DNA of 64,000 nucleotides from Heliocybe sulcata (Eukaryota > Basidiomycota > Agaricomycetes > Gloeophyllales > Gloeophyllaceae): contig ML213525.1 of assembly GCA_004369045.1 (NCBI GenBank), positions 375,789 to 439,788 of the forward strand. Direction: 5' to 3'. Position 1 is the first letter of the stretch; each line of letters begins with the position of its first letter. The notes under the pieces are model-generated. The model saw nothing but the letters and a program-made list of their open reading frames with translations, did no database searches and was not told where the DNA came from. Shown in pieces: positions 6,742-60,440 of the stretch. The translations under genes and the position numbers were made by a program.

Positions 6742-9700
6742 ATGTCCAGGGAGAAGACGAAGACATCCGTGTACGAGAAGAGTAGGTGCTCCAGTTGACT
6801 CAGCGTCGAAACTCGGGCTAAAAGCACGTGCTATCGTTAGGGAGGTTGCAGTCTATACCAGCGCCCATCGGTTGGTACAGCTAGATGGGTATGCTAAGGC
6901 CATTGGGACTAAAGCTAGCTAGGCTCCGACTCCGACCCTGAGTTCAAAACTGGTGCATATGTGTATGAGAAACCAAAGAAGAAGCGAACGAAGAAGAGTG
7001 TCAAGAGAGATAACCAAGAAGAAGAAGAAGAACAAGTGAACATTCAGTATACAAATAACTTTGGTGCTTATGGCAACCCACTAGAGGGTGGCTCCGGTCG
7101 TCGCTGACATGTGGCGTCTACCAGGTCCATGTAGAATTAAATTAGCTCCCAACCCTTTGGCTGAGCTCTTCGGTACAGCACGTCCACCTTCTTAAACACT
7201 ACCTTGTTAACTCATGCGATCTATCTTCCATAGGAGATCTTGATCTGCACTCGGCGTCGGAGTCGGAAGACGAGGAAGCACTTGAAGAGCGTTCAGACGA
7301 AAGCTCGCAGGAAGACCGCAAATCGCCAGAGAGTGAGGATAGCCCGATTATACTGAAGACTCTATCTGGGATAGCATCCCAACGGAAACAGAAACTTGCA
7401 TCAGCCGACAATTCTCTCACTGGTATGCTCACGATGTGATACGTTGCAGATGCTATGCTGATAAGCCTCATAGAACCAGACTCTGACGACAACAGATTGT
7501 CCGTCCCTCCAAAGAGGAAACTGGACGACAGCTACGCAGATGCTGGACGCCTCGCCAAGAAACTGAAGTCAGGTAGGCCGGCATCTAATTGCATTGTGAC
7601 TTGCTGCTGAAGAGATATTCGCTCTTCAGGGGACGACAGAGAGTCCTCGGTGACCGAATCGGAATCAGACTCCGAAATGCAGAATTTTATATCAAATATG
7701 GTCTCGCAACGGCGCGAATGTGAGATGCTTGTATTCACTCTCGTGTATGCGCCGATCTTGACGCTTGTACAGCGCCTTTAAAGAGTAAGAAGCCATCAAT
7801 CGCGACAGTTCAAGAGGATTCTGTTACGGAATCCGACTCGGACGACGCATTAGACGAGCGTACACCGGTGGAGACGCGACCCAACTTTCCTCTTCCGCCT
7901 GGTCAGCGACCTCTAGGGCCTCTCATTCTGGACTCGAAGGCTCATGTCAAGATCCCGGCCTCCATTAACACCTACTTACGTGACTACCAGCGTGATGGTG
8001 TGCGATTCCTCTGGGAGCATCAGAAGACTGGACGGGGAGGGCTACTCGGCGACGATATGGGCTTAGTGAGTATACGTACGCCAGTTCTAGAAATATCTTG
8101 CTGAAGTACTCTATGTAGGGTATGTTTATCTTGGAGAATGTGAGAGGATATCCCCTTGACTGCAAATAGGTAAAACGATCCAAGTGATCTCTTTCTTATC
8201 CGCGGTTATGAAGAAATACGGGGACAGTCGGGATCTGGACCGCCGGCGGAGGTATGTATCTCAGCTGCAAGACCTGCCAGACTGGAAAGAACGGAGGCAA
8301 ATGCCTCCTGCCAACCAGGTATGGCCCACCTGCCTTATCATCGCTCCAAGCAGCGTAGTCGGCAATTGGGAACGCGAGTTCGCAACGGTAAGTCGTGTCT
8401 TGTCTAAACGGTCTAAGGAGGTTAATGGTTCATGCATAGTGGGGATATTTTGAAGTGGGGTTATATGTAGGACCGCATCGGAAAAGAGTCCTAAATGACT
8501 TCAAGTTAGGCAGGCTTGACGTCGGTCAGTATATAATTGCAAGTAATACTTTCTCCAGCTGACAGGTTATCCAGTTATCACTTCCCGCACGACGGCCGCA
8601 CGGGACATCGAGCTAATAAACTATCTACCATGGTCGATTATCATTGTCGATGAGGTCCATTACCTCAAAAACCCAAAGTCGAAAACGACCGAGAGCTACC
8701 ACTCCCTGAACCCGTCGGCAGTACGTTTTGGGTTGACAGGTACGGCCATCCAGAACTCGTACACGGAGCTCTGGACGATACTGGACTGGTGCTATCCTGG
8801 ATGCGTCGGAAGGCCGAGGCAGTGGAAGGGCTATGTCACGAAGCCTCTCTTGCTTGGCCAGTCAGCTTCGGCGAGTGACGAGGAGAAAGTCCAGGCGCGG
8901 GTACGGGGGTCTCGCACGGCATAAAGTCGCTTCCACTCATAATATTTACGGTTTTAGCTGGTATCTGAGATCCTCGTTAACAAGCTTCTCCCAAGATACT
9001 TCTTAAGAAGGTGCGCTCGGGAACGTCCTTTGTAATATACACCTGGGCTTACTATGCCTACAGAACTAAGGACTTGATAAAGCATCAGGTAAATAGTCGC
9101 GGCTGGGCGGTGTCATGCGAGATTCTCATTCCCTCCAGCTCCCACGGAAAACCGACGAAGTAGTATTCTGCCCATTGACGGCCAAACAAATTGAAACCTA
9201 CAAACGTCTCCTCTCGTCCGATGACGTGAAGAACATGATTCGCAGGGACGAACGCTGCGATTGCGGCTCTCGAAAGAAGTGAGTTAGATCGCCACCAGCT
9301 ATCGGATATAGCTGATGTCGTACATCTTATGCGTAGGAGGAAGGATTGCTGCTATCCATGGGACAAAGCGGCGCTCTTCAAATACATGTCGGCCTTGATC
9401 AAGATATCAAACCATCTTGCCCTCGTTTTACCTGGTACGGAGTTATGTCGCTGTTCATCACTATAGCACCTTACCTCGTTATACAGCCCCTAAAGACACC
9501 CCTGAACAGGTATGTCTCCGCTCATGCTCAAGAAGCTGGAGAGCGTCCTGATGACTTTCATATTCAGAACACGAGAAACCATGAATTAACAGACCTTGCC
9601 TTCGCAAAGGGAGAAAAGCCTGCATACGGCACTGCGTCTCTCGAGCCGAGGTTCTGCGGCAAGTGGATGGTATGCATTCCTAACTTATAGCTGCGCATCG

Positions 9701-12998: not shown

Positions 12999-13159
12999 AC
13001 TCCTAGGCAAGTCGGTAGTAAGTACTCAATTTAGGATGATATGAGAGCAAAATGGCAATGACGGCGTCCGTACGAGGGATAAAATTACAACTATAATATA
13101 TGTTTCTCACCACCACCCAGATCATAACATAAAATACAATCAACAACGCCTTCGGCTCG

Positions 13160-14572
13160 TCACGAACCCGAGTCCACAACCGGCGCCGTCTCCGTGGTCA
13201 CCTCCGCTCGCCTCCGCCTGTCATCTGCCGCAGCAAAGGTCATACTGGCCAGGCTGCCCACCTCATCCAATCGTGCCGTCTTCACCGGCGTATCCGGCAC
13301 CGGGCAGTACTCGTCCTTCGCGTGCAACGACCTCTCCCCGAGCTGGAACTCGACTGTCCTCACCCCCTTCGAATAGTCCACGACCTTCAGCCCAGATCGC
13401 CTCTCCCCGTCCACCGTGGTCGCTGTCTCTTCCGTCCCTATGGTCGTCCCCCCAGTATACCGCCCCATATACGTCGAGAACCGCGACTTGTTGAAGCCCA
13501 GGGAGCGCGACTTGAACCGCGGGCCGCCCGCGGTCCCGTCCGCGTACGAGTCGTCCTGCGCGCTCTCGCCGTAGACGCCAAAGAGGCGCAGCAGGGCTGT
13601 CGCTGTCACCGGCAGGTTCGCTACTGTCAGGGACATGCAGTCCTACGAGGGGGTGAGGAAGGGGTTGGTCAGTGGAGGCGGGGAAGGCGCGCTCACCTCG
13701 ACGAGCGCGGAGATGACTACGGGGATCTCGCCCTCGGTGATGATGTAGTAGGCGTGGGCGAGGGAGACGATGGTTGTGACGACTGGTGGGGGGTGAGTGG
13801 CGTGAACAGGGAGGGGGGTAGACTTACTGCTGGTGGAGAAGATGAGGATGAGCCGGCGCTGGAGCGCGCGGTCTCTGATGCCGCGGATGAGACGAATGGG
13901 GAGCATGATGAGAAGCAGATCCGAGATCACGTCCGCTAACGCATTCAGGTGAGTATGGAAAGAGAAAGTATGGGAGGAGGCGTACACGCGACCTGGCAAA
14001 TGGCGACCTCCTTGTTCAGCCTGCACTGCGGGCTGCGCGCGTCCTTCCACCCGGGCTCGGGCTCGCACACCCACATGAGCTGGGCGAAGAAGAAGAAGAT
14101 GGCGGCGACGAACACGCCCGCGACCCACTTGAGCCTGTAGCGCATGGCGGGGTTGGGGTCGAGGCGGATGATGGAGAAGAGGATCGCGAGGCGCGCGGAC
14201 CAGATGATGGTGTAGAAGGTGACGGCCATGAGGTAGTATGCGGCGATGCGGCTTGTTTTGGAGATTGCGGTGGGGTCTTCGACGTGCATGAAGACGGCGG
14301 CGAATTGGATGAATAAGCTGGCGGATGCGTTAGTGAGAGCGAGGGAGAGGGGAGCGATGGAGGCGCTCACTTTATTAGGGAGAAGAATACCCAGGCGTCG
14401 TCCCACCAGTAGCGGCCTCGTCGAAGCCAGAGCCGCGACACGGTCATGCATATTGCCACAAAACCGCACACGGACTCGGTGACTGCGTTCAAAAATCAGC
14501 AAGACGGACAGTCAAGCGAAAAAAAACGTACTCTTTATCTTGACCAAAGGATCGTCCAGGTTGAGCCCCATT
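13160..14572 (-). CDS. rhodopsin-domain integral membrane protein, paralogue 1
   Basis: Seven-helix fungal membrane protein of the rhodopsin-domain type seen in PTH11-like families; function unknown. It starts MGLNLDDPLVKIK, then a helix LFIQFAAVFMHVED, AAYYLMAVTFYTIIWSARLA, FSIIRLDPNPAMRYRLKW, a helix ending FFFFAQLMWVCEPEPGWKD, a CQV loop, ADVISDLLLIMLPIRLIRGI, and VVTTIVSLAHAYYIITEGEI, ending in SLTVANLPVTATALLRLFG and a hydrophilic tail of about 130 residues. Introns are short (the second is about 55 nt). A second full paralogue lies at 26292-28080, and two 5' fragments lie at 30555 and 58809. Confidence 0.82.
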
Positions 14573-26291: not shown

Positions 26292-28080
26292 ATGGGGCTG
26301 AACTTGCACGATCCTCTAGTCCAGATTAAACGTGCGTTCTTTCTCTACACTACTCAAGAGCTGACTGCGTAACTATCATCCCAGTAACCCAGGCGGTATG
26401 CGGGTTCGTCGCAATCTGCATGACTGTCTCTCGTCTCTACATCCGTAGAGGACGATATTGGTGGGACGATGCATGGGCTTTCTTCGCCCTCTTGAAGTAA
26501 GTGTCGAACTTGCTGAAGAGCATGCTATGGATGGGCGGTCGATGCACGCCATCCATCCATTCTTTGGGATGTGCCCCAACTTTCCCCGCGAAGAGGTCCT
26601 CAGGCGCCGCAGTCTCGCGTCGGCGATAACTAATATGAAACCTGTGTATCCCTCGCTGCCGGAGGCGCCGAGGGCTGTATTTCTTGCATCTCCTTTGGGA
26701 GTCTCAGGATCATCCCCGAAGGGCCCATGTGATAGCATGGCAGTCCGGTGTACTTCCTGCATCTCCTTGAGGTGCTGAAATATGGATGCGGGACCACACC
26801 ATCCTTCAACGGGGGTGAAATGACGCCGCTCATTGGCAGACTCCCGTCCCTGCATCTGGGTCATTCGCACGTTTGCAGGAGGCACATATCCGTCTACACG
26901 CCACCTGCCCATCTCACCTAAAGTGTCTGTACTTCCTGAATACGACCGCTGATCCTTTTTCTTCATGATCTAGTCTCTTCGTTCAATTTGCCGGCATCTT
27001 CATGCACGTCGAGAACCCCGCCCAGCTCCCCAAGACCAGCCGTGTAGCGGCCTACTATCTCATTGCCGTGACCTTCTATACCATCATCTGGTCCGCCCGG
27101 CTATCCATCCTGTTCACCATCATCAGGATCGACCCCGACCCCCGGATGCGGCAGCGCCTGAAATGGGTCGCCGGCTTCTTCATATTCGCGATCATTTTCT
27201 TCTTCTGCCAGCTGATGTGGGTGTGCGAGCCGCCGAGCAAGACGGCTTGGAAGGATGCGAAGAGTCCGCAGTGTGAGCTCGGTAGCCAGGTTGCTATCTG
27301 CCAGATCGTCAGTGAGTGTGATAGATAATTTGTCCCCGAAGACAGATTGTTAATCCCATTCCGCTACTAGCCGACGTTCTCTCCGATTTACTGCTTATGA
27401 TCCTGCCGCTGCGACTTATACGCGGTCTCCAGAATAAAGGCCTCCGCCGCCGACTCATGGTCATCTTTTCAACCTCCAGTGCGTCACCTTTCTTAGCTTC
27501 TCTCCTCTGTCTTCCTTCATTAACCGTCCTCCCAGTCGTGACCTCGGTCGTCTCCCTTGTCCACGCCGCCTACATCATCGCCGTCGGCGGCACAAAAGTC
27601 GTGCTGATAGCAGCAATCGAAGACTGCCTCTCTCTAACCGTCGCGAACCTGCCCGTGATGGCGACCTCGCTTTTCAAGGCGCTCGGCATGTACGCTGACG
27701 ACGACGCCGGCAGGGACAGCACGGTCGATGACGGCGAGGATATGCACTTCAAGAGCCGCACGACGCAGGCTTTCAGGAGCAGGCTTTCGGGTATGCTTAG
27801 TGGGATCAGTGGGACGAGGTCGAGAGGCGGCGGTGGCCGGACGACGGCGGGATTTGGATTGGGGAGGAGCACGGTTGGTACGGAGGAGACGGGTGATACG
27901 GAAGATACCGCGGATGAGATAAGTAAGGAGGTGGGTAAGCATGCTGAGCTTAAGGCGGCGAGGAGGGGGAAGACGGGGGATAATATGGTCGAGTTTGCTC
28001 CGACGTTGAGCTTGGGCCGCAGACAGGGGACGAGTGGCACGGCCTCTGTCAAGGCGGGAGAGCTGGGAGCTGAGACGTGA
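26292..28080 (+). CDS. rhodopsin-domain integral membrane protein, paralogue 2
   Basis: Paralogue of the gene at 13160-14572. It starts MGLNLHDPLVQIK; exon 2 gives LTQAVCGFVAICMTVSRLYI and RRGRYWWDDAWAFFALL; exon 3 gives LFVQFAGIFMHVENPAQLPK, VAAYYLIAVTFYTIIWSARL, a helix ending FFFCQLMWVCEPPSK; then DVLSDLLLMILPLRLIRGLQ, VVTSVVSLVHAAYIIAVGG and SLTVANLPVMATSLFKALGM, and a glycine-rich, charged tail of about 140 residues. The same seven-helix plan as paralogue 1, with strongest identity in the helices and divergence in the tail. Odd: intron 2 is about 470 nt (roughly 26500-26973), against about 55 nt in paralogue 1. Confidence 0.83.
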
Positions 28081-29256
28081 TTCCTTGGAGAATGGAAAAG
28101 TGCCCCGTCAAGGGGGCCGCGATACCCACTGTTCGACTTCCGTGTGCCTTTCCCCCTTGCATACTTATCTCGTATCTATGTAGCAGTAGTCATGTATCTA
28201 TACGTGTAGAATCTTAATGTAATATGGATCTCGACAGGCAGTAAACTGACGAACCGCACTCTACTCGTCCATCGTGGCATGTGTGGCATGCCCCAAGTGC
28301 AAGACGGATGCCATCGGGCACTCAGCGCTCAGCAGTTCGGGAATTTTCAGGTGATCAGCTTAGATCGAGATCATATGCACAAGGGAAGTGTTCAAAGGGG
28401 CCAGGACGGCACCATTTCTTGCGGGCCTCAGACTCGGGTAAATCACCGTCGGAGCTGAAGCTGAAGAACCGTGCGAACAAGGGCATCAATTCATAGAGTC
28501 GTGAGGGCCTAATTCACGCTCGCGAACACAGAGGATGCTGGGAGGAGTGGCGATGCGGAGAACGAGTCGCTCTCCTAGTTGTCATTGTACTGGTGAACTT
28601 GACAAGTTCGATTTGCGAGGTTGAAAGGGATTTAAGTCATTTATTGGTAGATAGTACAAACAGCTTACCTGGCTTGTGCTCATCCTTGTGATCTGCACGT
28701 GAAGAGACGTCCCTCACAGGAAGTCAATACGTCGATATTCCCGAAGAAAGCTGTGGAAGTATGAGGGGCAGTGTAACGCACGGGAGTCATTGGGAATTCC
28801 TTAAGGTAGACTAGATGCCCGGATATCGTGCACGGCGCGCGATGAATCCAGCCGGACTCTCGAGCGTGGAACAGTGGAGAGACGGACGATAGATCCGCGG
28901 GTGGATGGGGGCCGCGGGCTACGAGGAGAGACATTGTCGGTTAGACGGTGTGGTGGTGTAGTCCGGGACAACTTCAGGTAGGATAATTCTGTGAACAAGA
29001 AAACAGCAATAATCGTGACGGCTGAGAGCACGCCACAACGCACCGTGCCCCTCCAGCTCGAACGATCAAGCCCACCTCTGCGACCGCTTCAAGTGGTTGC
29101 CACACAGCATTGCCTTACTTTCAGCGCGAAATCTTGGCTGTTCCGACGGGTGGCGACAGGTAAAGAGCGTCGGCTATGTGAAACTGTCAGTAAGGAATAG
29201 AATAGGGTATAAATGGACGACGTACCTCGAGCGATATCCAACAAGTTGACGCATCC
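28081..29256. other. intergenic region, no firm gene
   Basis: About 1.2 kb. On the minus strand, 28801-29043 opens with a hydrophobic signal-anchor-like VLSAVTIIAVFLFTELSYLK followed by a basic tract, and could be the N-terminal exon of a lost or unrecognised membrane protein. I cannot extend it convincingly, so no gene is called. Confidence 0.4.
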
Positions 29257-30600
29257 CGAGCCCCAGAAAAGAGCGGGCGAGCTCAAGCGGAGCAGGGCGC
29301 GTCTGTGGAAACATTCACCGTTAGACGAGCGCCTCAGGAATTTATAGCAGGTACAGTACTAGTCTGGTACAGTCCGTTAGTTGCTCAGGAGCGTGAGAAT
29401 ACGCTGCGGCGAAGGCCGCAGGAGCAATTATATAGGAGCTAGCCCCGACGTCGCCACCAACGAGCACCAGCAAACGACTATCCTCTATTATGCCGACTTG
29501 GCTCGAGATGCGAACCGCGATGCGTGGAGTGTCCAAGTTTCCTCGCCGTACGCCTGAGGAGATCCGTGCACTCGTTGAACCGGCCGCCCAACGAATGTTC
29601 GGCTACATGCAGGCGCAGATTAGCTCTGTGATGTTCCTCGCACAAGATGCCCCCAGACGCGACGCCATGCTTCGAGAGCATCAGGTCAAGTGTAGCGCCG
29701 CTGGAATCATCGATGCGCCGGTGATCTCGGACGATCAGGATCCATACGCACTGCTAGCCATATACGATGATGCTCTCAGTGTGGGGGCACACACATTCAA
29801 AGAGTACCGTGGTCGCTTTCTTTCCGAGCACAACATCCTGCTGACAGAGACTCGAACATAGGCATTTCGACCGCATGCACCATGCTTTCGCTGCGACAAT
29901 GATCTTTTTGGAGGTCAAGGTTACTGAGTGGTCTCGAGACAAAGCTGTATGGACTGCATTCAATAAACGGTGGAATTTCATGTGAGAGTGATGTCTTCTT
30001 TGCATGCCATCCATCCCTTCTCATGTTGTATTTCTAGGCACGACCAGTGGCTCAACCCAGACAGCCCCCCACCTCATGGTGTCACCGGCACTCCTCCACC
30101 TCCCCCTCACCCACCCATGCCAAACAATGCAAGGACAATGACCGATGACGAGGTGACAGCCCTCATCACGCAGCCACTAGCACTATCGTCCATGCTGTTC
30201 TGTAGTCTGCCGGGTGGTGAAGAGAGTGGCATGTTCACCATTGAAGTCACGATCCATAGGGGGTCTTATCGCTATGGCATCCATTACGATGACTGCGATG
30301 CCACAATTCCTGTCGAGCCTGAGGAGCTGCGGTCGCTGTTGCTTGACAGTCATTGCATGAATGTGTAATTGATATGTTGTGCTTGTCATGTTTTCCTGGT
30401 CAATATTATCCTCTTTAGCTCTTAGTGGTTGAAGTGTTCTTCTAAAGTACGTGCCCCTAAATATATGTGCCTGACTTGTCCCTACTACCTTCCACCCACC
30501 CGCTCACAAGCAGTTGACATGGCCTTGAGCTCGAGGGCCAGCGGCCAGGAGACCATGGAGCTGAACTTGCACAATCCTTTGGTCCAGTATAAATGTGTGC
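29257..30600 (+). repeat. direct duplication, left copy (1.34 kb)
   Basis: Nearly identical to 57511-58854. Several landmarks (29342/57596, 29490/57744, 29970/58224, 30429/58683) all show the same offset of 28,254 bases, so there is no net insertion or deletion over at least 1.2 kb. It contains a TATA-like element, a three-exon gene, and the promoter plus first exon of a rhodopsin-domain gene. Identity falls off in the last 60 bases. The two copies are in the same orientation. Confidence 0.9.
29490..30368 (+). CDS. three-exon gene for a 254-residue unknown protein, copy 1
   Basis: Exons 29490-29803, 29862-29981 and 30038-30368; two GT-AG introns of 58 and 56 nt keep the frame, which supports a real gene. 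Seen: MPTWLEMRTAMRGVSKFPRR, a helical region with MFGYMQAQISSVMFL, then HAFAATMIFLEVKVTEWSRD, a proline-rich stretch (TGTPPPPPHPP), and a compact C-terminal domain with MFTIEVTIHRGSYRYG and EPEELRSLLLDSHCMNV. TATATA lies 60 bases upstream (29429-29434). No family is recognised; the proline linker between two folded parts suggests two domains. The second copy, 57744-58622, encodes an apparently identical protein. Confidence 0.65.
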
Positions 30601-30750
30601 TGTTTCCCTATGAGCACTATTCATGAGCTGACTGATTCATTATCATCCCCAGTGACCCAGGCCGCATGCGGGTTCATCGCAATCTGCATGATCACCTCTG
30701 GTCTCTACATCCGGAGAGGACATTATTGGTGGGACGATGTATGGGCAGGA
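30555..30750 (+). pseudogene. 5' fragment of a rhodopsin-domain membrane protein gene
   Basis: Starts MELNLHNPLVQYK, close to the first exon of the paralogue at 26292 (MGLNLHDPLVQIK), and continues after an intron as VTQAACGFIAICMITSGLYI and RRGHYWWDDVWA, matching exon 2. Homology then stops at about 30748, where the downstream flank of repeat copy A begins. The upstream 80 bases match the promoter of the intact gene. It has lost all but the first membrane helix. Confidence 0.8.
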
Positions 30751-31163
30751 CGATATCATAGATTCGGGTATACAATCATCGTCGGGACTACAGAGATACG
30801 AACATCTATGCCTACCTTGCGGCGACGTTATAGCTCATTCAGCGCTCGAGAATCTTTCATATACGATTGTCATTCAAGATTCCAAGAAATAATACCGAGT
30901 CCCTACACTACAATAAACGATTCGCCATCTGGTGAACCACCACTTCCTCCGAAAGTCTGCATCTCGACGAACCACCTTCCCGACATTGACCGTTAATAAC
31001 AGAGCGTTTCTGTGCTGCGAACGGATCCGTTACAGCCTCGACGAACAGCGCATCCAAAGAGTACTAGGGCATGCTCTAGGGTGCCAAGGCAGTGCCCGCC
31101 CGACCAGCCGGCGCGGAGCCGCGCATGTCCACAACGACGTATGCCATTTGAAGCAGACTGGAA

Positions 31164-31189
31164 GCTCTAGGGGACGTCTCCCCTAGAGC
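31164..31189. repeat. perfect palindrome in copy A flank
   Basis: Ten-base arms GCTCTAGGGG / CCCCTAGAGC around ACGTCT. The corresponding site in copy D (about 60051-60076) keeps the GGGG/CCCC core but is no longer perfect. Confidence 0.7.
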
Positions 31190-31213
31190 CTCCACGGCTA
31201 TCAGCTCCTGGGG

Positions 31214-31232
31214 TCCATAGGCAGCCTATGGA
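31214..31232. repeat. second perfect palindrome in copy A flank
   Basis: Arms TCCATAGG / CCTATGGA around CAG. The same palindrome with loop CTG (its reverse complement) is at 60007-60025 in copy D, so it is conserved in both copies. Could act as a 3'-end or terminal signal of the repeat unit; unproven. Confidence 0.7.
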
Positions 31233-31870
31233 GGGGTACCGCGACGCAGGCCAGGGAGGTGGGGGTGATCAAATCCCCACCTCGACACGCGAAGGTTGAT
31301 CAGACCCTCATCGTGTCCCTGCTAGCGTCACCCTGGCTGCCCGTGGATGGCTGACTGCGCACTGCGGGAGGCGAGCTCGCTTGGGCGTTGAGGACGAGCG
31401 GCTTGGTGCGCGACTGTCGAGGGATACAATGGGGATGGGCTTGCTTCGACCTCGTAGAGGGACGGTTGCTGCATGGTTGCCGAAGGACAGGGAAGAATGG
31501 GACAACGGCTGGGAAGGTCAGGTGGTCGCGTCGCGGAGGAGTAGACCGCGCATAGGCGGCTAGACGACCGTCGAAACGAGCATAAGCAATGACTCCACCG
31601 ACGACACGCAAAAGTCCAAGAAAGAGAAAGTACAACGCACGTTGAAGAGGAATGTGCGCCGACTGGAAAGGAACTATCCAAGCTGAAGGTAAAGAGTGAT
31701 TCCAAAGGAAAGCTGCGACGCGCGATGAAGATGAAGGGAATACGCGCCGAGCACCAAGAAATACCAAAACTCGAGAGACTTGATATGAGATTTTGTTCTT
31801 TTATTCTTTTTTTGGGTTTTGTTGCTTTTCTTATTTTTTTGTGTTTTCTTCTATCGTTCTTCGCGAGACG

Positions 31871-34057
31871 TTAACGCGAGCCCGAGACATTCTCCTTGCC
31901 GGACATCCTCTTTGCCCTCACCGGAGTACCGCCCACAATGCCATGTCGTCTGGCAGCAAGAGCCTGCCGGGGGACAGCCTGTGGAGACGACGACCCAAGA
32001 GTAGCATTCGCGCCTTTGCGGTTCACAGCGGAAACAGCCATTTCCATGCGAGACTGCTCGGCCACGGCGTTCCTGGGACGAGGGGTAGCGGGCTTCTTGC
32101 ACCTGGGCGACGATGGCGGGTTACCGGACAGCGTGAAGGAGGCGGGCTTGTTGTGGAGAGTCTGTTGACGGCGGGCGCGCTTGGTCTGCTTGGCGTCCTT
32201 CGCGCCGTTCTTGATAGCAAGAATGGGTTTTCCTGAGATGGTGATACAAGCAGGGATAGACTCGTCGTCGGCGATGGCAGGAGCTTGGACAGGTTCCTCG
32301 GAGATGATGACTAGAGCAGCAGCAGACTTCTCAGCCTCAACGATAAGAGCGACAGGGGGCTCCTCAGCATTGACGATAGGAACGACAGGAAGCTCCGCCT
32401 TAGCGACAGGAACAACGGGTGACTCCTCCTCCTCATCTTCTTCAAAGATGGTACGAAGAACCGGCGTCGTCCCCTTCTTGCGCAGGACTGGAACAGGCCT
32501 AGGCTTCCGCTCGTCAATGGGGATGCTGCATCGCCCATCGACTACAGGAACGACCGTACGCTCCTCGTCCTTAACGGTACCCGGAAGAGACTGGCGCTTG
32601 CCAAGTTGAGACACGAGGAGGTACTCGTCAGTCGGCTTGCTCTCAGACACCGCGACCTCGAGGACGGGACTTGCAGGAGGAGTAGGCAGCGCATCCTGCG
32701 TAGGTGAGGTGACAATGATGCCAGGGACAGGCGTCATCTTCAGGTCCTCGTCGTCGCTCGGAAGGTTCGCGTAGAGCGAGATGATTGCACTGTTGTCACC
32801 GCTGGGAGAGTCGCAAATCGTCTGTTCCTCGCTGGAGATAGTCTGCTCCGAGTACACCGAGGCACTGTCCGTATCCGTGTATAGAGAGATGAGGTCCGTG
32901 TTGTCGCCGCTGGGAGAGTCACTGATCGTCTCGGGATCGTTGCTGTCGCCGCTGGGAGATGCAGAGATGGCATTGTCCCGGTCGTTGTCAATGCTGGCAG
33001 ACTCGGAAATCGCCTTGTCCTCGCTAGTGATGGGCTGCGTGGGGTCCACAGTCCAGGAGGAGGGAGCAGCTTCGTCATCGGCGGAAAACAAAACATGGCT
33101 GGGCCCGGCAAAATCAGGCGACATCGGCGGAGTGGGGATACCGCAGTCACAGTCGCGACGATAGAACGTGATGCCAGACCTCCGCTTGTTCTTGCTCCTT
33201 CCCATCTCCTGCACCCAATCGACTGGCTTGATCTCCCTAGAGGTCGGCAAAGAATACCTTCGTCCCCCAATCATCCTGCACGGTGCGTGGGCAGGCAACC
33301 AGGTGGCTCGCTTTGCTGAGCGACCGGTGATAGGAGACCCAGCCAGGAGTGTCAACGGGCGAGGAGCAACTTTGACCGGAGGCGGGGTGCGCCAGAAAGC
33401 AAGGCCAGCAAGAACGGAGCCCGCAGGTGCTGGGGTGGCTGACAGTTTCTCGATGTCGTTGTCCGCAGTGACTACCGATGAGCGACTGAGCCATGACTTA
33501 AGACCAGCAAGCTTCGAGACAGAAGGCTCCGTGGGCCTGGACCCTTGCACATTGGGCGGGGTGCATGCGGGGAGAGGGAGACCGCTAGCAGAAGGCGAAG
33601 CGGGGAGCGAAGACCGAGCCTTGAGTACGCTGAGGATCGAGAGCTTGACCTCGACCACGGCATCCAGTAAGGCAATGCGCTGTGTCGCGGCATGTCAACG
33701 AACTACCAGGGCAAGAGGACGCGTTGGACGTACCTTCTCTACGACCCACTCTTTACAGCCACCCCAGTATTTCCTCCACACACGGAAGACACCGGAACCA
33801 TGATTCTTCGGTATCATATGTGTCAGCCGGTGAGCGCCTCGCAGTAGGTCAACATGACTTACATCGCCACTAGCCTGAGGAAGAATACCAACGGTGTCGA
33901 GGGAAGAAGCCCTGCTGAAGACCACGCGGACCAGGGCGATGACGCCCATGAGAGGAACCAATCCGCGGTAGTAGAGAACCGTGCAGAGACCAAACCCAAA
34001 GACACCAGCAATGAAGATGAAGAGGAGCCACATGGCCGGATCGATGCCGTCAGCCAT
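31871..34057 (-). CDS. copy A: intact single-pass acidic membrane protein of an undescribed repeat family
   Basis: Three exons, 34057-33863, 33805-33734 and 33679-31871, separated by 57 and 54 nt introns, all phase 0; 691 residues. Seen: a 10-residue N-terminus, one membrane segment (MWLLFIFIAGVFGFGLCTVL), a second hydrophobic stretch (GLVPLMGVIALVRVVFS), a cysteine/tryptophan-rich VWRKYWGGCKEWVVEK, then a long disordered region. It has FYRRDCDCGIPTPPMSP, three SPSGD repeats in an acidic serine-rich tract, a Val/Pro/Glu-rich tract (SPVVPV, LPVVPIV) and a basic C-terminus with an RxxL (RQAL), GIVGGTPVRAKRM and a KEN motif (31889-31897) close to the stop. No family is recognised. It is divergent from SFT2, 314 bases between start codons. 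Confidence 0.75.
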
Positions 34058-34159
34058 GGCGATTTAAAGCTTCGAGGACTGGTAGTAGGACTTGTCGATA
34101 TGCAAAGTCGATGTCGTACTGGCCAGAAAGAAGGAAGCCTGAAGAGGTAGCGGCTAGCA

Positions 34160-34166
34160 TTTTATA
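34160..34166 (-). promoter_or_regulatory. TATA box of copy A
   Basis: TATAAAA on the minus strand, about 105 bases upstream of the start at 34057. The same element at the same distance is kept in copy B (47450-47456). The shared sequence reaches back to about 34262, so the promoter was duplicated with the gene. Confidence 0.7.
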
Positions 34167-34371
34167 CGGGTAGCTAAAGCTGTCAGCCAGCGCGGCTGGC
34201 GCCTGACCTACTGCATTGAGCGTCTTCATGCTGCAGTCAGCCGCCGACATCGCGGTCGAAATCGCAAACAACCAGAGTGGGTGGCTGTGCTCTTCACGCG
34301 ACCCAGTCCCACGTGGCTTACCCCTACGTAGTGCATTGCGAGTCGTCCTTCGCACAGCTGAGCATCGCGCT

Positions 34372-35269
34372 ATGGCTCCTCCCCCTTCCACCGAACAAAA
34401 CTTCCGCGCCAATCTGTCGCAATTTCGCTGGGCAGGGGGAAGCACTGATGATTCCCAAGCGCAACCCGCGCCCTCCGCGAACCCGTTCAGCAGGTTCTAT
34501 AATGCGATAGGCGGCGGCTACGTCCCGCTGCGCTCAAGCGAGCGGTCGAATGAGGAGGAGGCGTATTTCGCATTGTCCAGATGGGAGAGGTGCGTGTATT
34601 GCGCTCTAAAGGAGGGATGGGGTTGGTAATTGAAGGAAGGACAGGTTATTGGGATTTGGGGCGTGTTTGCTGGGCGCAGCAGTCTGTTTCTTCGTCGCAT
34701 TCTTGACGATGCCATTACTTGCGCTACGGCCTGCAAAGTTCGCTCTCGCGTTCAGGTGCGAATGCATTCACTTCACACCAGAAGTACAGATGTCTAAGAA
34801 TCCCGCAGCTTGGGAAGCTTGCTAGTCATGTTTGGGTACGCCGACGTCTATGGTCTATCCCGTGTGAAGTCGCTGAAGTTACGCGGCGATCAGCTTCTCA
34901 GTGCTCATAGGTCCCATAAACCACATAAAACACCTCATATCGAGGGAGCGGCTCCCCTTCACCTTGGCATATTTCTCTAGCCTCGGACTGACTTTGTACT
35001 TCTCGCTGGGAGTGAGTCTATTTCTGGTTGCCCCGGCTTCTTAACGTATCTCAACCACCTGTAGGCACACTCATATATCGGCTCTCTAATATTTGCCGTC
35101 GTCCAGGTGCATTCTCCGACACCTCCTAAAGTGCCATCCTTTACTAACCACGATGAAGGTCATCGCACTTGTGTCCTACGTGCTCGCCTACTTTCCAGGA
35201 GGCATCCAAACCCTCCGCTTCGGCTCTCAAATGGCCATGCGCGGCGCAGGCAGCCTCCTCCCTTTGTAA
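34372..35269 (+). CDS. SFT2: vesicle transport protein SFT2
   Basis: Golgi membrane protein that assists fusion of endosome-derived vesicles with the late Golgi. Four or more exons. Seen: a polar N-terminus starting [59 protein letters not shown], then four membrane segments: [20 protein letters not shown], a helix ending [21 protein letters not shown], and [20 protein letters not shown], ending [19 protein letters not shown]. The RFGSQMA- ending and four-helix plan are typical. Only about 110 bases of upstream sequence lie outside the copy A repeat, so part of its promoter may come from the repeat. Confidence 0.88.
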
Positions 35270-46101: not shown

Positions 46102-47360
46102 CCACTGCCCTTCTGCGTACTCTGACCACGAGGGCAGTACTGTCGAGTTTTGTCGAGATTAGCGCCATGCTGTTGACGTGTTGGGCACCGCATCTGGTCA
46201 ACGTTTGCCCGCTAGTCGTCTTCTTGTCTCCCACTTGCGTACCGAAACTCCCATGTTGGTTCAAGCATCGGCTCGGGATAGTGGACGCTGCTTTTGGCGC
46301 TGAAGTAGCTGCAAAATGATGACGGCAGATCGCCTCTGTGTGACGGCTCAGCGCTGTTCGACAGGCTTGCGGAGCACCCTCGACATACGAGGGGCCAGGA
46401 CTCAGGATCATGCGGATGGTCTGTCGCTGACTAACTGGGATTGCTCGCCGTCACCGGAGGACCGAGTCTGCGTGGACTGTGTGGAGACATCAGAGCCCTT
46501 CCGAGATTCCCGAGACTACTGCTATCGAAGGCAGCAGAAAGCTCCCAGTCGATTTGACCGACTAGAAAGGAACAGTGGGGAGCAGGTAGCCAGACCGGAC
46601 TGTCAGGCTAGTCCCCGGGTGCATAGGATGAAGTGTTTGATGTATGCGCAGAAGAACAAGGTATATGCGCCGGAATCTTTGATATATGCTCAGTGAAAAT
46701 CAGCCTTAAACCCTAGCACACTGGACGATACTCTCCCATATCTCTGAAGCCTCAGGAGCTTCATGGTAAAATAGGAGCGCTCATGGCTTGCAGATGCAGG
46801 AGATAGTCAGCAGATATCTAGCTCGGTGTCGGTCTTGTGTTTCCATGGATGGGGCAAGCTGTGGCTTCCGATGGATCTGCTCTTCCCGGAAGGACCTTCA
46901 ACAGCATCCATTAGACTGTATCGGATCCGCTGAGAGTAGCAAGAGGCTCATGCAGGCCTCTCTTCATGTTCGGTCTTGGTACGATGATGCTGGATTGCAC
47001 GATGGCACTCGTAAAAGTTATGAGATCGTATATAGAGAATGCATTCGGCGTTCCGATTATTGTGTGTCCTGCAAGAGCAAATCCAAAGGAAGTGAGAAAA
47101 CCGGCGATGAAGGTGGGCATAACGGGAAGAGGGAAGCTTCAAGCATGCGACTCGCATTTAAGGCGGGTTCAGCGTACATCATTCACTCGTGCCAATAAGA
47201 TGCAACAGTGAAGAATGCGTACAAAGCCTTAGCTCAATATTGCGCTTCAGGTGTAAACAAACGTGTACATGTGGCGGGTTCGCGTTGCGTGCATATCACG
47301 TGGCAAAATCCGCCGACCACGCGATGTCCACGTTGATTGCACAGCCACACGCTCCGCTCG
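46102..47360. other. intergenic region, no firm gene
   Basis: About 1.2 kb between the BiP promoter and repeat copy B. On the minus strand, 46911-47120 reads a hydrophobic FIAGFLTSFGFALAGHTIIG that resembles a lone membrane helix, but no splice-consistent neighbours were found. Probably degraded sequence. Confidence 0.4.
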
Positions 47361-49273
47361 TTTTCGACCGCGATGTCGGCGGCTGGCTGCAGCATGCAGA
47401 CGCTCAATGCAATCGGTGAGCCGTGCTGGCTGACAGCTCTAGCTGCCCGTATAAAATGCTAGCCGCTACCTCTTCAGGCTTCCTTCTTCCCGACCAGTAC
47501 TACATCGACTTTGCATATCGACAAGTACTACTACCAGTCCTCGAAGCTTTAAATCGCCATGGCTGACGGCATCGATCCGGCCATGTGGCTCCTCTTCATC
47601 TTCATTGCTGGTGTCTTTGGGTTTGGTCTCTGCACGGTTCTCTACTACCGCGGATTGGTTCCTCTCATGGGCGTCATCGCCCTGGTCCGCGTGGTCTTCA
47701 GCAGGGCTTCTTCCCTCGACACCGTTGGTATTCTTCCTCAGGCTAGTGGCGATGTAAGTCATGTTGACCTACTGCGAGGCGCTCACCGGCTGACACATAT
47801 GATACCGAAGAATCATGGTTCCGGTGTCTTCCGTGTGTGGAGGAAATACTGGGGTGGCTGTAAAGAGTGGGTCGTAGAGAAGGTACGTCCAACGCGTCCT
47901 CTTGCCCTGGTAGTTCGTTGACATGCCGCGACACAGCGCATTGCCTTACTGGATGCCGTGGTCGAGGTCAAGCTCTCGATCCTCAGCGTACTCAAGGCTC
48001 GGTCTTCGCTCCCCGCTTCGCCTTCTGCTAGCGGTCTCCCTCTCCCCGCATGCACCCCGCCCAATGTGCAAGGGTCCAGGCCCACGGAGCCTTCTGTCTC
48101 GAAGCTTGCTGGTCTTAAGTCATGGCTCAGTCGCTCATCGGTAGTCACTGCGGACAACGACATCGAGAAACTGTCAGCCACCCCAGCACCTGCGGGCTCC
48201 GTTCTTGCTGGCCTTGCTTTCTGGCGCACCCCGCCTCCGGTCAAAGTTGCTCCTCGCCCGCTGACACTCCTCGCTGGGTCTCCTATCACCGGTCGCTCAG
48301 CAAAGCGAGCCACCTGGTCGCCTGCCCACGCACCCTGCAGGATGATTGGGGCACGAAGGTATTCTCCGCCGACCTCTAGGGAGATCAAGCCAGTCGATTG
48401 GGTGCAGGAGATGGGAAGGAGCAAGAACAAGCGGAGGTCTGGCATCACGTTCTATCGTCGCGACTGTGACTGCGGTATCCCCACTCCGCCGATGTCGCCT
48501 GATTTTGCCGGGCCCAGCCATGTTTTGTTTTCCGCCGATGACGAAGCTACTACCTCCTCCGGGACTGTGGACCCCACGCAGCCCATCACTAGCGAGGACA
48601 AGGCGATTTCCGAGTCTGCCAGCATTGACAACGACCGGGACAATGCCATCTCTGCATCTCCCAGCGGCGACAGCAACGATCCCGAGACGATCAGTGACTC
48701 TCCCAGCGGCGACAACACGGACCTCATCTCTCTATACACGGATACGGACAGTGCCTCGGTGTACTCGGAGCAGACTATCTCCAGCGAGGAACAGACGATT
48801 TGCGACTCTCCCAGCGGTGACAACAGTGCACTCATCGCGCTCTACGCGAACCTTCCGAGCGACGACGAGGACCTGAAGATGACGCCTGTCCCTGGCATCA
48901 TTGTCACCTCACCTACGCAGGATGCGCTGCCTACTCCTCCTGCAAGTCCCGTCCTCGAGGTCGCGGTGTCTGAGAGCAAGCCAACTGATGAAGGTCTTAA
49001 GCTTCCTGTGCCTCAGCTTGACAAGCCGCACACTCTTCCCGTTCCTGTTAAGGACGAGGAGCCTACGGTCGTTTCTGTAGTCGATGGGCGATACAGCATC
49101 CCATTGACGAGCAGAAGCCTAGGCTTGTTCCAGTCCTGCGCAAGAAGGGGACGACGCCGGTTCTTCGTACCATCTTTGAAGAAGATGAGGAGGAGGAGTC
49201 ACCTGTTGTTCCTGTCGTTAAGGCCGAGCTTCCTGTCGTTCCTATCGTCAATGCTGAGGCCCCTGTCGCTCTT
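47361..49273 (+). pseudogene. copy B of the acidic membrane-protein repeat family, truncated
   Basis: Shares with copy A the promoter (TATA 47450-47456), start (47559), the same two introns and the coding sequence through the SPSGD tract. The start MADGIDPAMWLLFIFIAGVF is identical. Differences grow toward the 3' end, where B reads GLKLPVPQLDKPHTLPVPVK in place of A's YLLVSQLGKRQSLPGTVK. A single base is missing near 49100 (CATCCCATTG against CATCCCCATTG), so the frame is lost. At about 49273 homology to A stops and an unrelated tail begins, so the basic C-terminus and KEN motif are absent. Orientation is opposite to copy A. Confidence 0.8.
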
Positions 49274-49624
49274 TCATGGCATCACACGTCGTGCTGGTAT
49301 GCGACTGTGCGCGCAGGCGTCTGTGAATGTTTTTGACGCCCCTGGTGTGTCGGCACGGCGAATCGCACTTCACCCCACAGCCTTCTGGCACGATGAGCTT
49401 CATAACGAAACTGGCGGCCTTGTCTTGTTTATTTCAAGACGCTAGCCTCACCCGTATAATGATATAGCAATGGACCGTTGTCCGGCAATCGACACTCCCC
49501 GCTTCTCGCATGTCGTGCTTCTGTACGCCCTCGCGACGAGCGTATGCCTCGACGAGACTCGCATCGATGCCTGGGACACGGTGTGGACATGTGTACCGTC
49601 CCCGGCCCTCTCCTCTGTTTGGTG
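48064..49624 (+). repeat. inverted repeat, left arm (copy B side)
   Basis: About 1.56 kb that recurs in reverse at 52297-53851. It covers the 3' two thirds of copy B and 350 bases of unrelated tail (49274-49624). Both arms carry the same junction (GTCGCTCTT then TCATGGC), so the junction was formed before the duplication. Confidence 0.85.
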
Positions 49625-51734: not shown

Positions 51735-52296
51735 TATATCATGATGTAGTAAGACCAATATGATGCGCAGGCCATTGTGAATTGTCTCGATGGCATTCTG
51801 TAAAGAAATAGTGAGTCTGAAACACCTTGCAGCCACCGATACCGTCACGTAGCAAGTCCCGGAGCCCGAACACAGTGTATCCCGGCCAGTGCATCGCTCT
51901 ACAGATGAAAACATCGTCCCAAGGAATGAGTGTCATCGATGGTGGCAGGACGGGGCTTGCTGCAGACAGAGAGTGCCGATGAGAGCAAAGGAGGCAGACA
52001 TACACATGTATCGCAACATAGAGCACCAGACACCATGCGCAATGCTTGTGGGAACGCAAGACATTCCGAATCAGCAGAATTCATTCCCAACGCCCGTAAA
52101 CTCGATAGACCGTCAATATAGAGCTGCTCGGCATGACTTCACAACAGAGCTACTCCAGTCGCTCAGCACACACTACAGAATGCGGAGCATGAAAACGTGT
52201 ATTGCAGACATGCAGTGGGCATTCCCGAAGGATATGAGACATCTCGCTGGATGGCGATCTGTCCCTACATCGCATGCCACGAGCATATGCAAGCCA
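51735..52296. other. spacer of the inverted repeat, last part
   Basis: 560 bases with no supportable gene between the orphan gene and the right arm of the inverted repeat. Confidence 0.4.
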
Positions 52297-53851
52297 AACA
52301 AAGGAGAGGGCCGGGGACGGTACACATGTCCACACCGTGTCCCAGGCATCGATGCGAGTCTCGTCGAGGCATACGCTCGTCGCGAGGGCGTACAGAAGCA
52401 CGACATGCGAGAAGCGGGGAGTGTCGATTGCCGGACAACGGTCCATTGCTATATCATTATACGGGTGAGGCTAGCGTCTTGAAATAAACAAGACAAGGCC
52501 GCCAGTTTCGTTATGAAGCTCATCGTGCCAGAAGGCTGTGGGGTGAAGTGCGATTCGCCGTGCCGACACACCAGGGGCGTCAAAAACATTCACAGACGCC
52601 TGCGCGCACAGTCGCATACCAGCACGACGTGTGATGCCATGAAAGAGCGACAGGGGCCTCAGCATTGACGATAGGAACGACAGGAAGCTCGGCCTTAACG
52701 ACAGGAACAACAGGTGACTCCTCCTCCTCATCTTCTTCAAAGATGGTACGAAGAACCGGCGTCGTCCCCTTCTTGCGCAGGACTGGAACAGGCCTAGGCT
52801 TCCGCTCGTCAATGGGGATGCTGCATCGCCCATCGACTACAGGAACGACCGTACGCTCCTCGTCCTTAACGGTACCCGGAAGAGACTGGCGCTTGCCAAG
52901 TTGAGACACGAGGAGGTACTCGTCAGTCGGCTTGCTCTCAGACACCGCGACCTCGAGGACGGGACTTGCAGGAGGAGTAGGCAGCGCATCCTGCGTAGGT
53001 GAGGTGACAATGATGCCAGGGACAGGCGTCATCTTCAGGTCCTCGTCGTCGCTCGGAAGGTTCGCGTAGAGCGAGATGATTGCACTGTTGTCACCGCTGG
53101 GAGAGTCGCAAATCGTCTGTTCCTCGCTGGAGATAGTCTGCTCCGAGTACACCGAGGCACTGTCCGTATCCGTGTATAGAGAGATGAGGTCCGTGTTGTC
53201 GCCGCTGGGAGAGTCACTGATCGTCTCGGGATCGTTGCTGTCGCCGCTGGGAGATGCAGAGATGGCATTGTCCCGGTCGTTGTCAATGCTGGCAGACTCG
53301 GAAATCGCCTTGTCCTCGCTAGTGATGGGCTGCGTGGGGTCCACAGTCCCGGAGGAGGTAGCAGCTTCGTCATCGGCGGAAAACAGAACATGGCTGGGCC
53401 CGGCAAAATCAGGCGACATCGGCGGAGTGGGGATACCGCAGTCACAGTCGCGACGATAGAACGTGATGCCAGACCTCCGCTTGTTCTTGCTCCTTCCCAT
53501 CTCCTGCACCCAATCGACTGGCTTGATCTCCCTAGAGGTCGGCAGAGAATACCTTCGTGCCCCAATCATCCTGCAGGGTGCGTGGGCAGGCAACCAGGTG
53601 GCTCGCTTTGCTGAGCGACCGGTGATAGGAGACCCAGCCAGGAGTGTCAACGGGCGAGGAGCAACTTTGACCGGAGGCGGGGTGCGCCAGAAAGCAGACG
53701 AGCAAGAACGGAGCCCGCAGGTGCTGGGGTGGCTGACAGTTTCTCGATGTCGTTGACCGCAGTGACTACCGATGAGCGACTGAGCCATGAATGAAGACCA
53801 GCAAGCTTCGAGACAGAAGGCTCCGTGGGCCTGGACCCTTGCACATTGCGT
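52297..53851 (-). repeat. inverted repeat, right arm (copy C of the repeat family)
   Basis: Reverse copy of 48064-49624, holding the middle of the acidic membrane-protein gene and the same unrelated tail. The 5' end of the gene, with promoter and membrane segment, is missing. Near 53700 the reading frame differs from copies A and B, so copy C cannot encode the full protein. In places it is closer to A than to B (it keeps YLLVSQLGKRQSLPGTVK). At its outer edge it joins directly to the ketoacyl-synthase-like scrap. Confidence 0.85.
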
Positions 53852-55324: not shown

Positions 55325-57510
55325 TAGGGCATGGATCGTGGATCGTATGTGCAGACATTGTCGGACGGAGAGCTACAGAAGGTCATCTTCCCGATCCTGC
55401 TTACTTCGCTTCTCAGGTATGTAAGGGTCGATACTGGGTCTTCTCTGGCCGATGCTTTGTTCTGAGATGACAGATCCCCGCCTGCCTTTTCCTCGGGTTT
55501 CTCATTACCGACTGGGACCTGGCGCAAATTCGACAGTCTGCGTCCTAGGAAGCGGGGAAGCCTCCCGGCTCGTGTATGCTGCTACATTGACAGTAGGGAA
55601 GCGGCGAAAAAGGGACTCAGCGGCTAAATACTGCGCGTGAAGGTCAACTCAGCGACTAAGTTGCAGCACCCACCAGAGACTGAACCAGATCGGAAACGGC
55701 CTGCCATCCCAGGATCAGACAGACGGCGGCCTCTCCTGAGATGAACAGGTCATTAATAAGGTAAACCGGGCACAAACGTACGAATAGTACTACCTTGACT
55801 GTCGCCTATCTTAAGTTTCGTGTGCTTAGCAGCTTCTGCTTTGAGCATGTGCTCAAAGGACCTGGCGAAGAAATACCTAGAACATGCGATTAGACGAGTC
55901 GCCCAGTTAATAACGGGAATTGGATGCACTTGCCTCCGTGTATGAACCATAGCCCATGAAACGAAGACCTGCGGCATAATTAGCAAGCACCTGAGTATTT
56001 CCGAGTGTAACGTACCGGACTCCCGAGGTACACCTGAATGAAGAGGAGAGCCTGCTACCATGTTGTCAACTGACTAAGGTCGACCATCGCCAGACCGCAG
56101 ACGGCCTGAGGAGGCGGGACGGTGAGTGCGGACTTTGCAGGTTCGCAGGAAGCCGCGAGAGGCAGTTGTGGCGTCATTCGAGGAGGCACAGCCACATAAA
56201 TTGTTTGTGACAAGTTACGATACAACGGGGTTCAACTCCAGGCGGTCCACTTCTTTAGCGGGATGGAAAAATATGCTTAGAAAACATATGTATGCAAAGT
56301 ATGGGATCTTAGGAGCAAAGCCGGACCTCAATAAGACCACTGGCAACTCATTTGTCACGCTGTCACATATGGGGTCACACTGCATGTGGCGGGGAAATGT
56401 AATAGTTTGATCAAACGACTTAGCAATAATGTTACTTCCATACCTAAGAAATATGATGTTGGTAGTGACTTCTGCGACCTCCGGCCGCTGTCTGGGTCGT
56501 GGCTGGTAGTAATGTAGCAGAGACAAGCAAAGAAGGGACAACTGGTCAAGGATGGTAAAGTCCATCAGACTCAAGTAAGTTTAACCTCGGGCTCATAAAC
56601 CCCCGCAGATTTCGTGGGCATGCGCAGCATCGCGCCCATTCCTAGCCCGTCTCGAGCACGGAAACTCACTTGTCACTGCACGGCCTTCAGAGCGGTTTAT
56701 TGTGTCCTGCGCATAATACACGATAAAGAGAAATAAATAGCACCAGAAATAGGTAGGAGAGGACGGGAGAGCACATAGAGACTAGACGGAACATCCAAGC
56801 TGCAGGCGGTGAGAACCGCTCCAGGCCGGGCGTGCGATATGCCGTGCATGAGGCAGTGCATGAGGAGCGAGGGCACTGAGTGTGTTGACTCAATCCGCCG
56901 CGTGGTCGCCGCAGGAGCGTGCTACAGCATTGAGAAAACCGTGTTGGCAATCGGGTGCGTAGAACAGCGCGTCACAGATTGGAGCGGCGGGTTCATGGTG
57001 TCGAAGAGTGGTAAAACCAAGTAGAGCGTCGGTAGGGACGTTCGTGGAGCCCGCATGTGCGATATGCCGGCCTTGCGAGAGATCCAGGGCAGAGAAAAGG
57101 AGAATGCTTTGTTTGTGTCGACACGGCGCGTTGCCGGCTCGAGGCCGGGTGTCGGCAGATCAAGTATCCAGTCAGAAAGGTATGGATGGTCACGTTCGAC
57201 ATCCTGGGTCAAGGACAGGCTCGTGCCCGCCCACCCATGAAAGAGACTACTGGATCGCAGAGGTAGACCCACGTTGAGTGTTGTTGCTGTCGAAGAGGTC
57301 GACGATGTGCATCGAACGGGGCAACGACAGAGAGCGCGAACATTGTCGTCAGGCGGAGACGACATTCCTGAACGTTATTCGGGTGATGCGCGTTAGATGG
57401 GAAGATGTGCGAGTTGGCAGCGGCATGAGAACGAGAGCAGAGGCAGAGACGGGCCTGGTAGGTCGCGCCTGTCGCGCCGCAAACACAAGAACCATCCGAA
57501 CTCGCTACGC
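55325..57510. other. accessory stretch without firm genes
   Basis: About 2.2 kb. On the minus strand around 55750-56060, exon-like pieces (YFFARSFEHMLKAEAAKHTK) with plausible GT-AG borders suggest a decayed gene that I cannot name. The rest (56100-57500) shows only short frames. Confidence 0.4.
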
Positions 57511-58855: not shown

Positions 58856-58860
58856 ATTCT

Positions 58861-59393
58861 CTATGAGTTTCCGGTCATTTCTGTAGGCGGTGTAGCGTCG
58901 CCGTTGACGAGCGGAAGGCGAAGTTTGCGCCGGTCCTGGGATGCACCCTGAAAGGGAAAATGCCAGATGAAGACGAAGAGGAGATTCCTGTCGCTCTTAC
59001 GGTTCAAGCTGAGAAGCCTGCTGCTGTTCTGGCCATCATCGGTCATCCTTGAGGAACCTGTCCAAGTTGCCACCATCGCCGCCGACGAGCCTGTCTCTGC
59101 TCGTATCACCATCTCAGAAGGAATTACTCTTGCTACGCGAAGGAAGTCAAACAGGCCAGACGCGCACACCGTCAACAGACTCTCCACAACAAGCCCGACT
59201 CATTCACACTGTCTGGCAAGAAGCCGGCTACACCTCGTCACAGGAACCCCGGCGGGAACACTACTCTTGAGTCGTCGTCTTCACAGGCTGTCATCAGGCA
59301 GGCTCTCACTGTCAGACGGCACGGCATTGTGGGTGGTACTGCGGCCAGGGAGAGGACGTCTCGCAAGGAGAATGTCTCCGGGTGGCGTTGACG
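58861..59393 (+). pseudogene. copy D of the acidic membrane-protein repeat family, 3' part only
   Basis: Corresponds to the last third of copy A. Readable matches: VDERKAKFAPVL, EDEEEIPVALTVQAEKPAAV, RRAHRQQTLHNKPDSFTLSG, KKPATPRHRN and the C-terminus SQAVIRQALTVRRHGIVGGT with the KEN motif (59365-59373) and stop. The frame is broken in the middle and the membrane-anchored N-terminus is absent. It is the most diverged copy, yet RxxL, RRHGIVGGT and KEN are all kept. Confidence 0.75.
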
Positions 59394-60440
59394 TCTCGCG
59401 AAGAACGATAGACGAAAACGAAACCCAAGATAAGAATAAAAAAACGAAATCTCATTTTGACTCTCGAGTTTCGGTAGTTCTTGATGCTCGGCGCGTATTC
59501 CTATTCACCTTCATTGCGCGTCGCAGCTTTCCCTTGGAATCACTCTTCATCTTCAGCTTGGATCTTTCCTTTCCAGTCGGCGCACATTCCTCTTCAACGT
59601 GTGTTGTACTTTTTGTTTCTTGGACTTTTGTGTGACGTCGGTGGAGTCATTGCCTATGCTCGTTTCGACGGTGGTCTAACCGCCTATGCGCGGTCTGCTC
59701 CTCCGCGATGCGACCACCTTACCTTCCCAGCCGTTGTCCCCTTCTTCCCTGTCCTTCGGCAACCATGCAGCGACCGTTCCTCTACGAGGTCGAAGAAAGC
59801 CCATCTACGCTGTATCCCTCGACAGTTGCGCATCAAGCCGCTCGTCCTCAACGCCCAAGCGAGCTCGCCTCCCGCAGTGCGCAGTCAGCCATCCACGGGC
59901 AGCCAGGGTGACGCTAGTAGGGACACGATGAGGGTCTGATCAACCTTCGCGTGTCGAGGTGGGGACTTGATCACCCCCACCTCCCTAGCCTGCGTCGCGG
60001 TACCCCTCCATAGGCTGCCTATGGACCCCGGGAACTAATGCCCGTGGAGGCTCGAGGGGAGACGTCCCCGAGAGCTTCCAGTCTGCTTCAAATGGCCCAC
60101 CTCCTTGTGGCCTTGGATGCGGCTCTGTGCCGGTTGCTCATCCTTTGCACTCCTTGAATGTGTTGTCCGTCGACGCTGGAGCAGGGCCGTTCGGAGCACT
60201 GGGTGTCAAGGGCCAATGTCGGGATGGTCTCGCATCCTATGGACTCAGTAGTTTGGCGCGATGGGGGTTCTTGGAGGAAACGATGGTTCACCGTATGGCA
60301 GACAATTTATTGTAGTGTACAGACTCGGTTATTATTTCTTGGAATCTTGAATGGCATTCGTATATCAAAGACCCTCGTGTGCTAAATGAGCTATAACGTC
60401 GTGGCAAGGTAGGCATAGATGTTCGTGCCTTTCTGCAGTC
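59394..60440 (+). repeat. downstream flank of repeat family, copy D
   Basis: Matches the flank of copy A (30751-31870) in the opposite orientation, including the palindrome TCCATAGG-CTG-CCTATGGA at 60007-60025. Homology fades near 60440, the probable outer border of the repeat. Confidence 0.7.

Follow-up and report, generated by a model that had tools for sequence, protein, structure and literature searches.

A gene family for a probably membrane-anchored protein in Heliocybe sulcata, with two constrained segments and a 3' flank more alike among three copies than their coding DNA

Within a window of 64,000 nucleotides of Heliocybe sulcata DNA (the whole stretch that was analysed), copy A of a small family, on the minus strand at 34057-31871, is a real gene. 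It has three exons and introns of 57 and 54 nt, both GT..AG, and the frame is kept after splicing to give a product of 691 residues. We put at about even the chances that copy A functions as a host gene within a fast-evolving family whose product would be a membrane-tethered, disordered scaffold or adaptor, the status of host family being based on two intact paralogues in one genome. If true, the list of fungal genes would gain one for an unnamed disordered protein that is tethered to a membrane and has two sharply conserved segments.

Table 1. Features of the family, its flanks and its neighbourhood (window positions unless a contig is given), and divergence between copies
Feature	Position	Strand	Remarks
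Copy A, exon 1	33863..34057	-	65 codons; carries the start codon and encodes the hydrophobic helix at the N-terminus (residues about 7-50)
Copy A, exon 2	33734..33805	-	24 codons; introns at matching places in E and F
Copy A, exon 3	31871..33679	-	602 codons + stop; encodes the constrained core (residues 201-286), acidic SPSGD repeats and patches of basic residues, and ends with the conserved tail
Conserved tail of A with KEN	31874..31960	-	last 29 residues
TATA box of A	34160..34166	-	TTTTATA on the plus strand; ~100 nt before ATG; conserved in B and E
Got1/SFT2-type gene	34372..35269	+	head-to-head with A; ATG and stop read from sequence, putative exons
Copy B	47339..49273	+	covers the promoter and codons up to about residue 530; truncated, with introns retained; 96% to A
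Copy C	52643..53848	-	about residues 132-530 only; 98.5% to A
Non-family DNA at end of C	52294..52642	-	100% identical to 49274-49622 behind B
Copy D	58861..59391	+	3' part from about residue 472 (last ~220 codons); frameshifts and stop; tail kept
Copy E	contig C22		87% DNA identity; single in-frame TGA at codon 229 after splicing
Copy F	C23:356639-358711		whole, 654 residues; ~49 kb from A, outside the window; 72% DNA identity
Copy G	contig C44		fragment; 91% over 439 nt
3' flank of A	31124..31870	-	counterparts follow D, F and E; mismatches lack a clear codon phase
3' flank of D	59504..60115	+	93% to flank of A
3' flank of F	C23:355915-356634		more alike to flanks of A and D than coding DNA is
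Very stable RNA fold	31155..31355	-	z -7.1 against shuffles; plus strand z -5.5
Divergence (%), 3' part of coding DNA			A-F 25.5, A-D 19.4, F-D 27.9, A-E 13.7, E-F 27.1, E-D 21.9
Divergence (%), stop codon to structured island			A-F 6.6, A-D 8.6, F-D 9.8, A-E 15.4, E-F 16.9, E-D 19.3
Divergence (%), beyond island			A-F 36.1, A-D 22.9, F-D 35.6, A-E 16.9, E-F 34.1, E-D 21.9

The original prediction had described A as whole, with two short introns and a TATA box, and the splice sites, the open frame and the TTTTATA were all found (Table 1). Upstream DNA that includes the TATA box and an AGCC..TGGCTGACA element is common to A, B and E and weaker in F. The element itself (34181-34197), kept in A, B, E and F, is partly palindromic and lies ~15 nt upstream of the TATA box. 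Beyond the Got1/SFT2-type gene at A are Nup192 and HSP70 genes. The E locus is a copied block that matches 30822-35056 of the window at 84% and includes the Got1/SFT2-type neighbour, whose copy there, as read from the sequence, is missing its start codon; a third Got1-type match, on contig C4, is interrupted by two TGA codons.

Searches of the genome to which the window belongs (51 contigs, 31.6 Mb in all) with the DNA of A (8 matches) and its protein (11 matches) revealed at least seven family loci, designated A to G, far beyond chance (E 0 to 1.4e-8 in the protein search). All four copies predicted in the window (A to D) exist. For C, which had been placed at 52297-53851, family sequence is present from 52643, but the first ~349 nt (52294-52642) are non-family DNA; as B and C share this non-family DNA at 100% identity, both descend from one truncated copy. 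The claim that only A is whole holds within the window but not genome-wide, since F is whole too and E has one stop; both A and F are open after splicing (691 and 654 residues). Introns are retained in B, E and F, at the same places in E and F as in A, indicating that copying occurred at the DNA level. The family may have expanded by local DNA duplication, with F first and then the A/E block and its SFT2-type neighbour, and the fragments B, C, D and G would have arisen separately.

Several truncated copies lying close together as inverted and direct repeats might suggest that the family is transposon cargo or debris without host function, and the DNA between B and C contains several short matches to other sites (39-293 nt, 68-95%) that could be repeat remnants. 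We regard this explanation as very unlikely: the product of A is without a Pfam match, the loci found genome-wide number seven (a lower bound), introns are kept in B, E and F, A adjoins the Got1/SFT2-type, Nup192 and HSP70 genes, and the frames of both A and F are uninterrupted, with an omega below 1. Pfam searches of the product of A and of 18 further ORFs, out of 77 listed for the window, detected no transposon domain. The seven loci have different ends. The earlier description of the family as repeat-borne is misleading given the location of A next to these genes, DNA-level copying and the lack of a transposon domain in the products searched.

Among Pfam, the PDB, this genome and the bacterial, archaeal and viral contigs searched, the family is without a described relative, in agreement with the prediction that the protein belongs to no placeable family. 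A Pfam search with all 691 residues of A found no family at E up to 1, no PDB relative or solved structure was matched to the product, and no relative was confirmed in bacterial and archaeal contigs (41 pattern matches) or in viral contigs (22). When the tail, the core and the N-terminus were used as separate queries for distant paralogues in the genome, the known loci were recovered together with matches on contigs C12 (E 1.33) and C4 (E 0.29), which were judged unrelated on reading. Lineage-specific (orphan) gene families are a general class in fungi. The present family resembles them in having no domain match, in evolving fast and in being locally duplicated with decayed copies; it differs in possessing two intact paralogues with sharply conserved blocks and in being homogenised more strongly in the 3' flank than in the gene.

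The product is probably membrane-anchored, as had been predicted. Over 19 residues, hydropathy in A, E and F reaches 2.28-2.38 at its peak, which is near residues 7-30. A second hydrophobic stretch continues to about residue 50, and an AlphaFold model of exon 1 (3-sequence alignment) contains one helix at residues 7-58 (mean pLDDT 72, and 92 at residues 11-20); this hydrophobic helix is long enough to span a membrane. The ~600 residues after the helix are predicted to be disordered. The model of exon 3 (2-sequence alignment) has almost no structure and a mean pLDDT of 34.5, a low confidence that, because both alignments are shallow, is just consistent with disorder and not proof of it. The helix, at residues about 7-50, would act as a signal anchor that tethers the product, with the disordered part probably cytosolic, a topology suggested by acidic residues before the helix and by R31, R44 and R49 within or after it. 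Long disordered cytosolic tails mark a general class of single-pass signal-anchor proteins. The product is like these proteins in consisting of one N-terminal helix followed by ~600 residues with almost no predicted fold, and unlike them in that no sequence relation to any member was found.

Such a protein may work as a membrane-tethered scaffold or adaptor in which short constrained segments dock partners, as their constraint and composition suggest. Three segments are candidates for docking: the core near GRRYSLP...FYRRDCDCGIPTPPMSP; the SPSGD-ISLY repeats, which are acidic; and ARRHGIVGGxPVRAKxxSGKENVxG, which is basic and lies at the C-terminus. Kinase control may be hinted at by the ~20 SP/TP sites (19-21 SP/TP pairs each in A, E and F) and by RRYSLP, which we take to be a possible basophilic-kinase or 14-3-3 site; in E, a broken copy, Q replaces the P of this site.

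Comparison of coding sequences shows that A and F have been under moderate purifying selection, an omega near 0.45 being mild. Both frames are open and omega between them is below 1 (0.44, bootstrap 0.36-0.54; dN 0.210, dS 0.479); the values involving E are similar (A-E 0.48, 0.35-0.66; E-F 0.46, 0.38-0.58) and mix time before and after the break, as E is broken. This constraint is uneven. Across the A, E and F comparisons, omega is 0.16-0.20 in the core (residues 201-286) and 0.04-0.21 in the last 29 residues, and 0.88-1.66 in residues 633-662 directly before the tail. The core differs from the rest in all three comparisons (Fisher p 0.049 for A-E, 0.028 for A-F and 0.002 for E-F), and the tail does so for A-E (p 0.001; 2 non-synonymous and 11 synonymous changes, versus 135 and 80 elsewhere) and A-F (p 0.02) but not significantly for E-F (p 0.23). 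Judged on amino-acid identity alone, the tail does not stand out, being equalled or exceeded in 68 (A-F), 46 (E-F) and 132 (A-E) of 672 29-column windows. Retention of the tail merely through conversion of the 3' end was rejected, as tail dS is 0.73 for A-F, 0.73 for A-E and 0.39 for E-F with amino acids retained. These codon comparisons indicate that the tail matters, but that it is one of two such constrained blocks. The original prediction, that the tail is kept while the middle drifts, was drawn from A and D and fails for that pair, for which DNA identity per 100 nt is 81-85% across the tail and 71-88% elsewhere, with 8 non-synonymous and 8 synonymous changes in the tail of D; it holds for A, E and F, where block 201-286 is similarly constrained.

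A more specific proposal was that the tail is an APC/C degron, combining a KEN box with a D box, and that the protein is a cell-cycle-regulated membrane protein. The predicted motifs are present, since RQAL, RRHGIVGG and KEN occur in the 3' ends of both A and D, and KEN is found in 4/4 tails (SGKENVSG in A and E, SGKENVAG in F and SRKENVSG in D). The protein-level constraint on the tail and its position within a stretch predicted to be disordered also favour a degron, as does a Glu three residues before KEN, found in F alone. The motifs alone are weak, however, as a KEN turns up in 4.7% of shuffled versions of A (5000 shuffles) and the RxxL count of A is 5 against about 3.2 expected. A published review gives [DNE]KENxxP as the KEN consensus, a motif that usually follows directly on acidic residues, and RxxLx[D/E][O]xN[N/S] as that of the D box (PMC5717348). 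APC/C substrates and the present tails have in common a KEN tripeptide in a terminal segment, here probably disordered. All four tails depart from the consensus in having G or R directly before KEN and no Pro after it, and 0/13 of the RxxL sites of A, E and F (5, 4 and 4) have N or D at position 9, where the D box has Asn. Moreover, F, one of the two intact paralogues, has KQAL in place of the tail RxxL, and LAARRHGIVGG, also in the tail, is as invariant across A, E and F as KEN. KEN is kept in D although D is a frameshifted fragment; as D is broken and its tail changes are 8/8, retention there is weak evidence of selection. The case for a degron role is weak and we consider it highly doubtful: nothing singles a degron out, and the cell-cycle or degradation signal, the main source of the original interest, is unsupported.

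An unexpected result was obtained beyond the stop codon. The ~700 nt of non-coding 3' flank diverge by 7-10% among A, F and D, compared with 19-28% in their coding DNA. Of the four copies that have such a flank, E is nearest to A in coding DNA, yet it is the outlier in the flank (Table 1); A, F and D are on one contig (C23) and E is on another. The same reversal is seen in single-copy changes, with 49 of 441 flank sites at which E alone differs versus 12 for F alone, and 28 versus 59, respectively, of 491 coding sites. Flank sites with a clean two-by-two grouping are few (AF|ED 2, AD|EF 3 and AE|FD 3 of 441), so the case for conversion rests on the distances and the single-copy changes. Gene conversion or unequal exchange on C23 fits these comparisons best as the process that homogenised the flanks, and A-type sequence may have overwritten the 3' flanks of F and D. 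If true, this would be a neat local case of gene conversion making non-coding flanks look more conserved than genes, and it warns against inferring function from conservation between local copies. The flank was also considered, and rejected, as a hidden gene; mismatches by phase (A-F 10, 11, 12; A-E 25, 27, 24; A-D 16, 9, 17) were read as having no clear phase, and its longest open frames are 180 codons in A, 157 in F, 153 in D and just 109 in E.

It is also possible, but in our view unlikely, that the 3' flank is itself functional, serving as a long 3' UTR or as a structured RNA in its own right. This would agree with the 200-nt fold (z -7.1) and with the restriction of matches to its DNA in the genome to the regions behind A, D, E and F (4/4 3' flanks). 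Divergence is also lower in the fold than just before it for E-D (8% versus 19%, p 0.00015) and for A-E (8.5% versus 15.4%, p 0.015). In a coarser minus-strand scan (25 shuffles per window), 200-nt windows overlapping 31155-31355 rank 2nd and 3rd of 638; at D, the corresponding stretch is weaker (best z -2.26) when folded from the strand opposite to the one that carries D. Against a functional flank, there is no covariation support, with two-sided compensatory change in 1/64 pairs across the four close copies (a comparison of low power) and paired columns as variable as unpaired ones (17/128 and 9/61 variable). An AATAAA starts 66 nt past the stop codon, and copy distances reverse between coding DNA and flank, a reversal that constraint alone would not give. 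When 30000-32600 was searched for known RNA, the two Rfam matches that appeared fell far short of the gathering score and were taken as chance. Most improbable, in our judgement, is a joint arrangement in which a membrane-tethered disordered protein, its basic KEN tail being a real docking or turnover signal, is accompanied by an independent, strongly structured RNA from the 3' flank; gene conversion would keep this RNA alike among the copies on one chromosome, and the RNA might coordinate them.

Other repeats and folds were observed in the window. A direct repeat of ~1.36 kb, 99% identical (29256-30614 and 57510-58867), ends near the 3' side of A and directly before D, respectively, and two ORFs tested from it had no Pfam match above the cut-off. 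A diverged repeat family at 13066-14564 and 26292-27273 is also present within ~6 kb of F (83% over 784 nt). The ORF at 13945-14502 bears a weak resemblance to fungal rhodopsins (Pfam E 0.017, below the cut-off). The strongest fold of the 638 200-nt windows scanned is at 8601-8800 on the minus strand (z -4.4, 25 shuffles).
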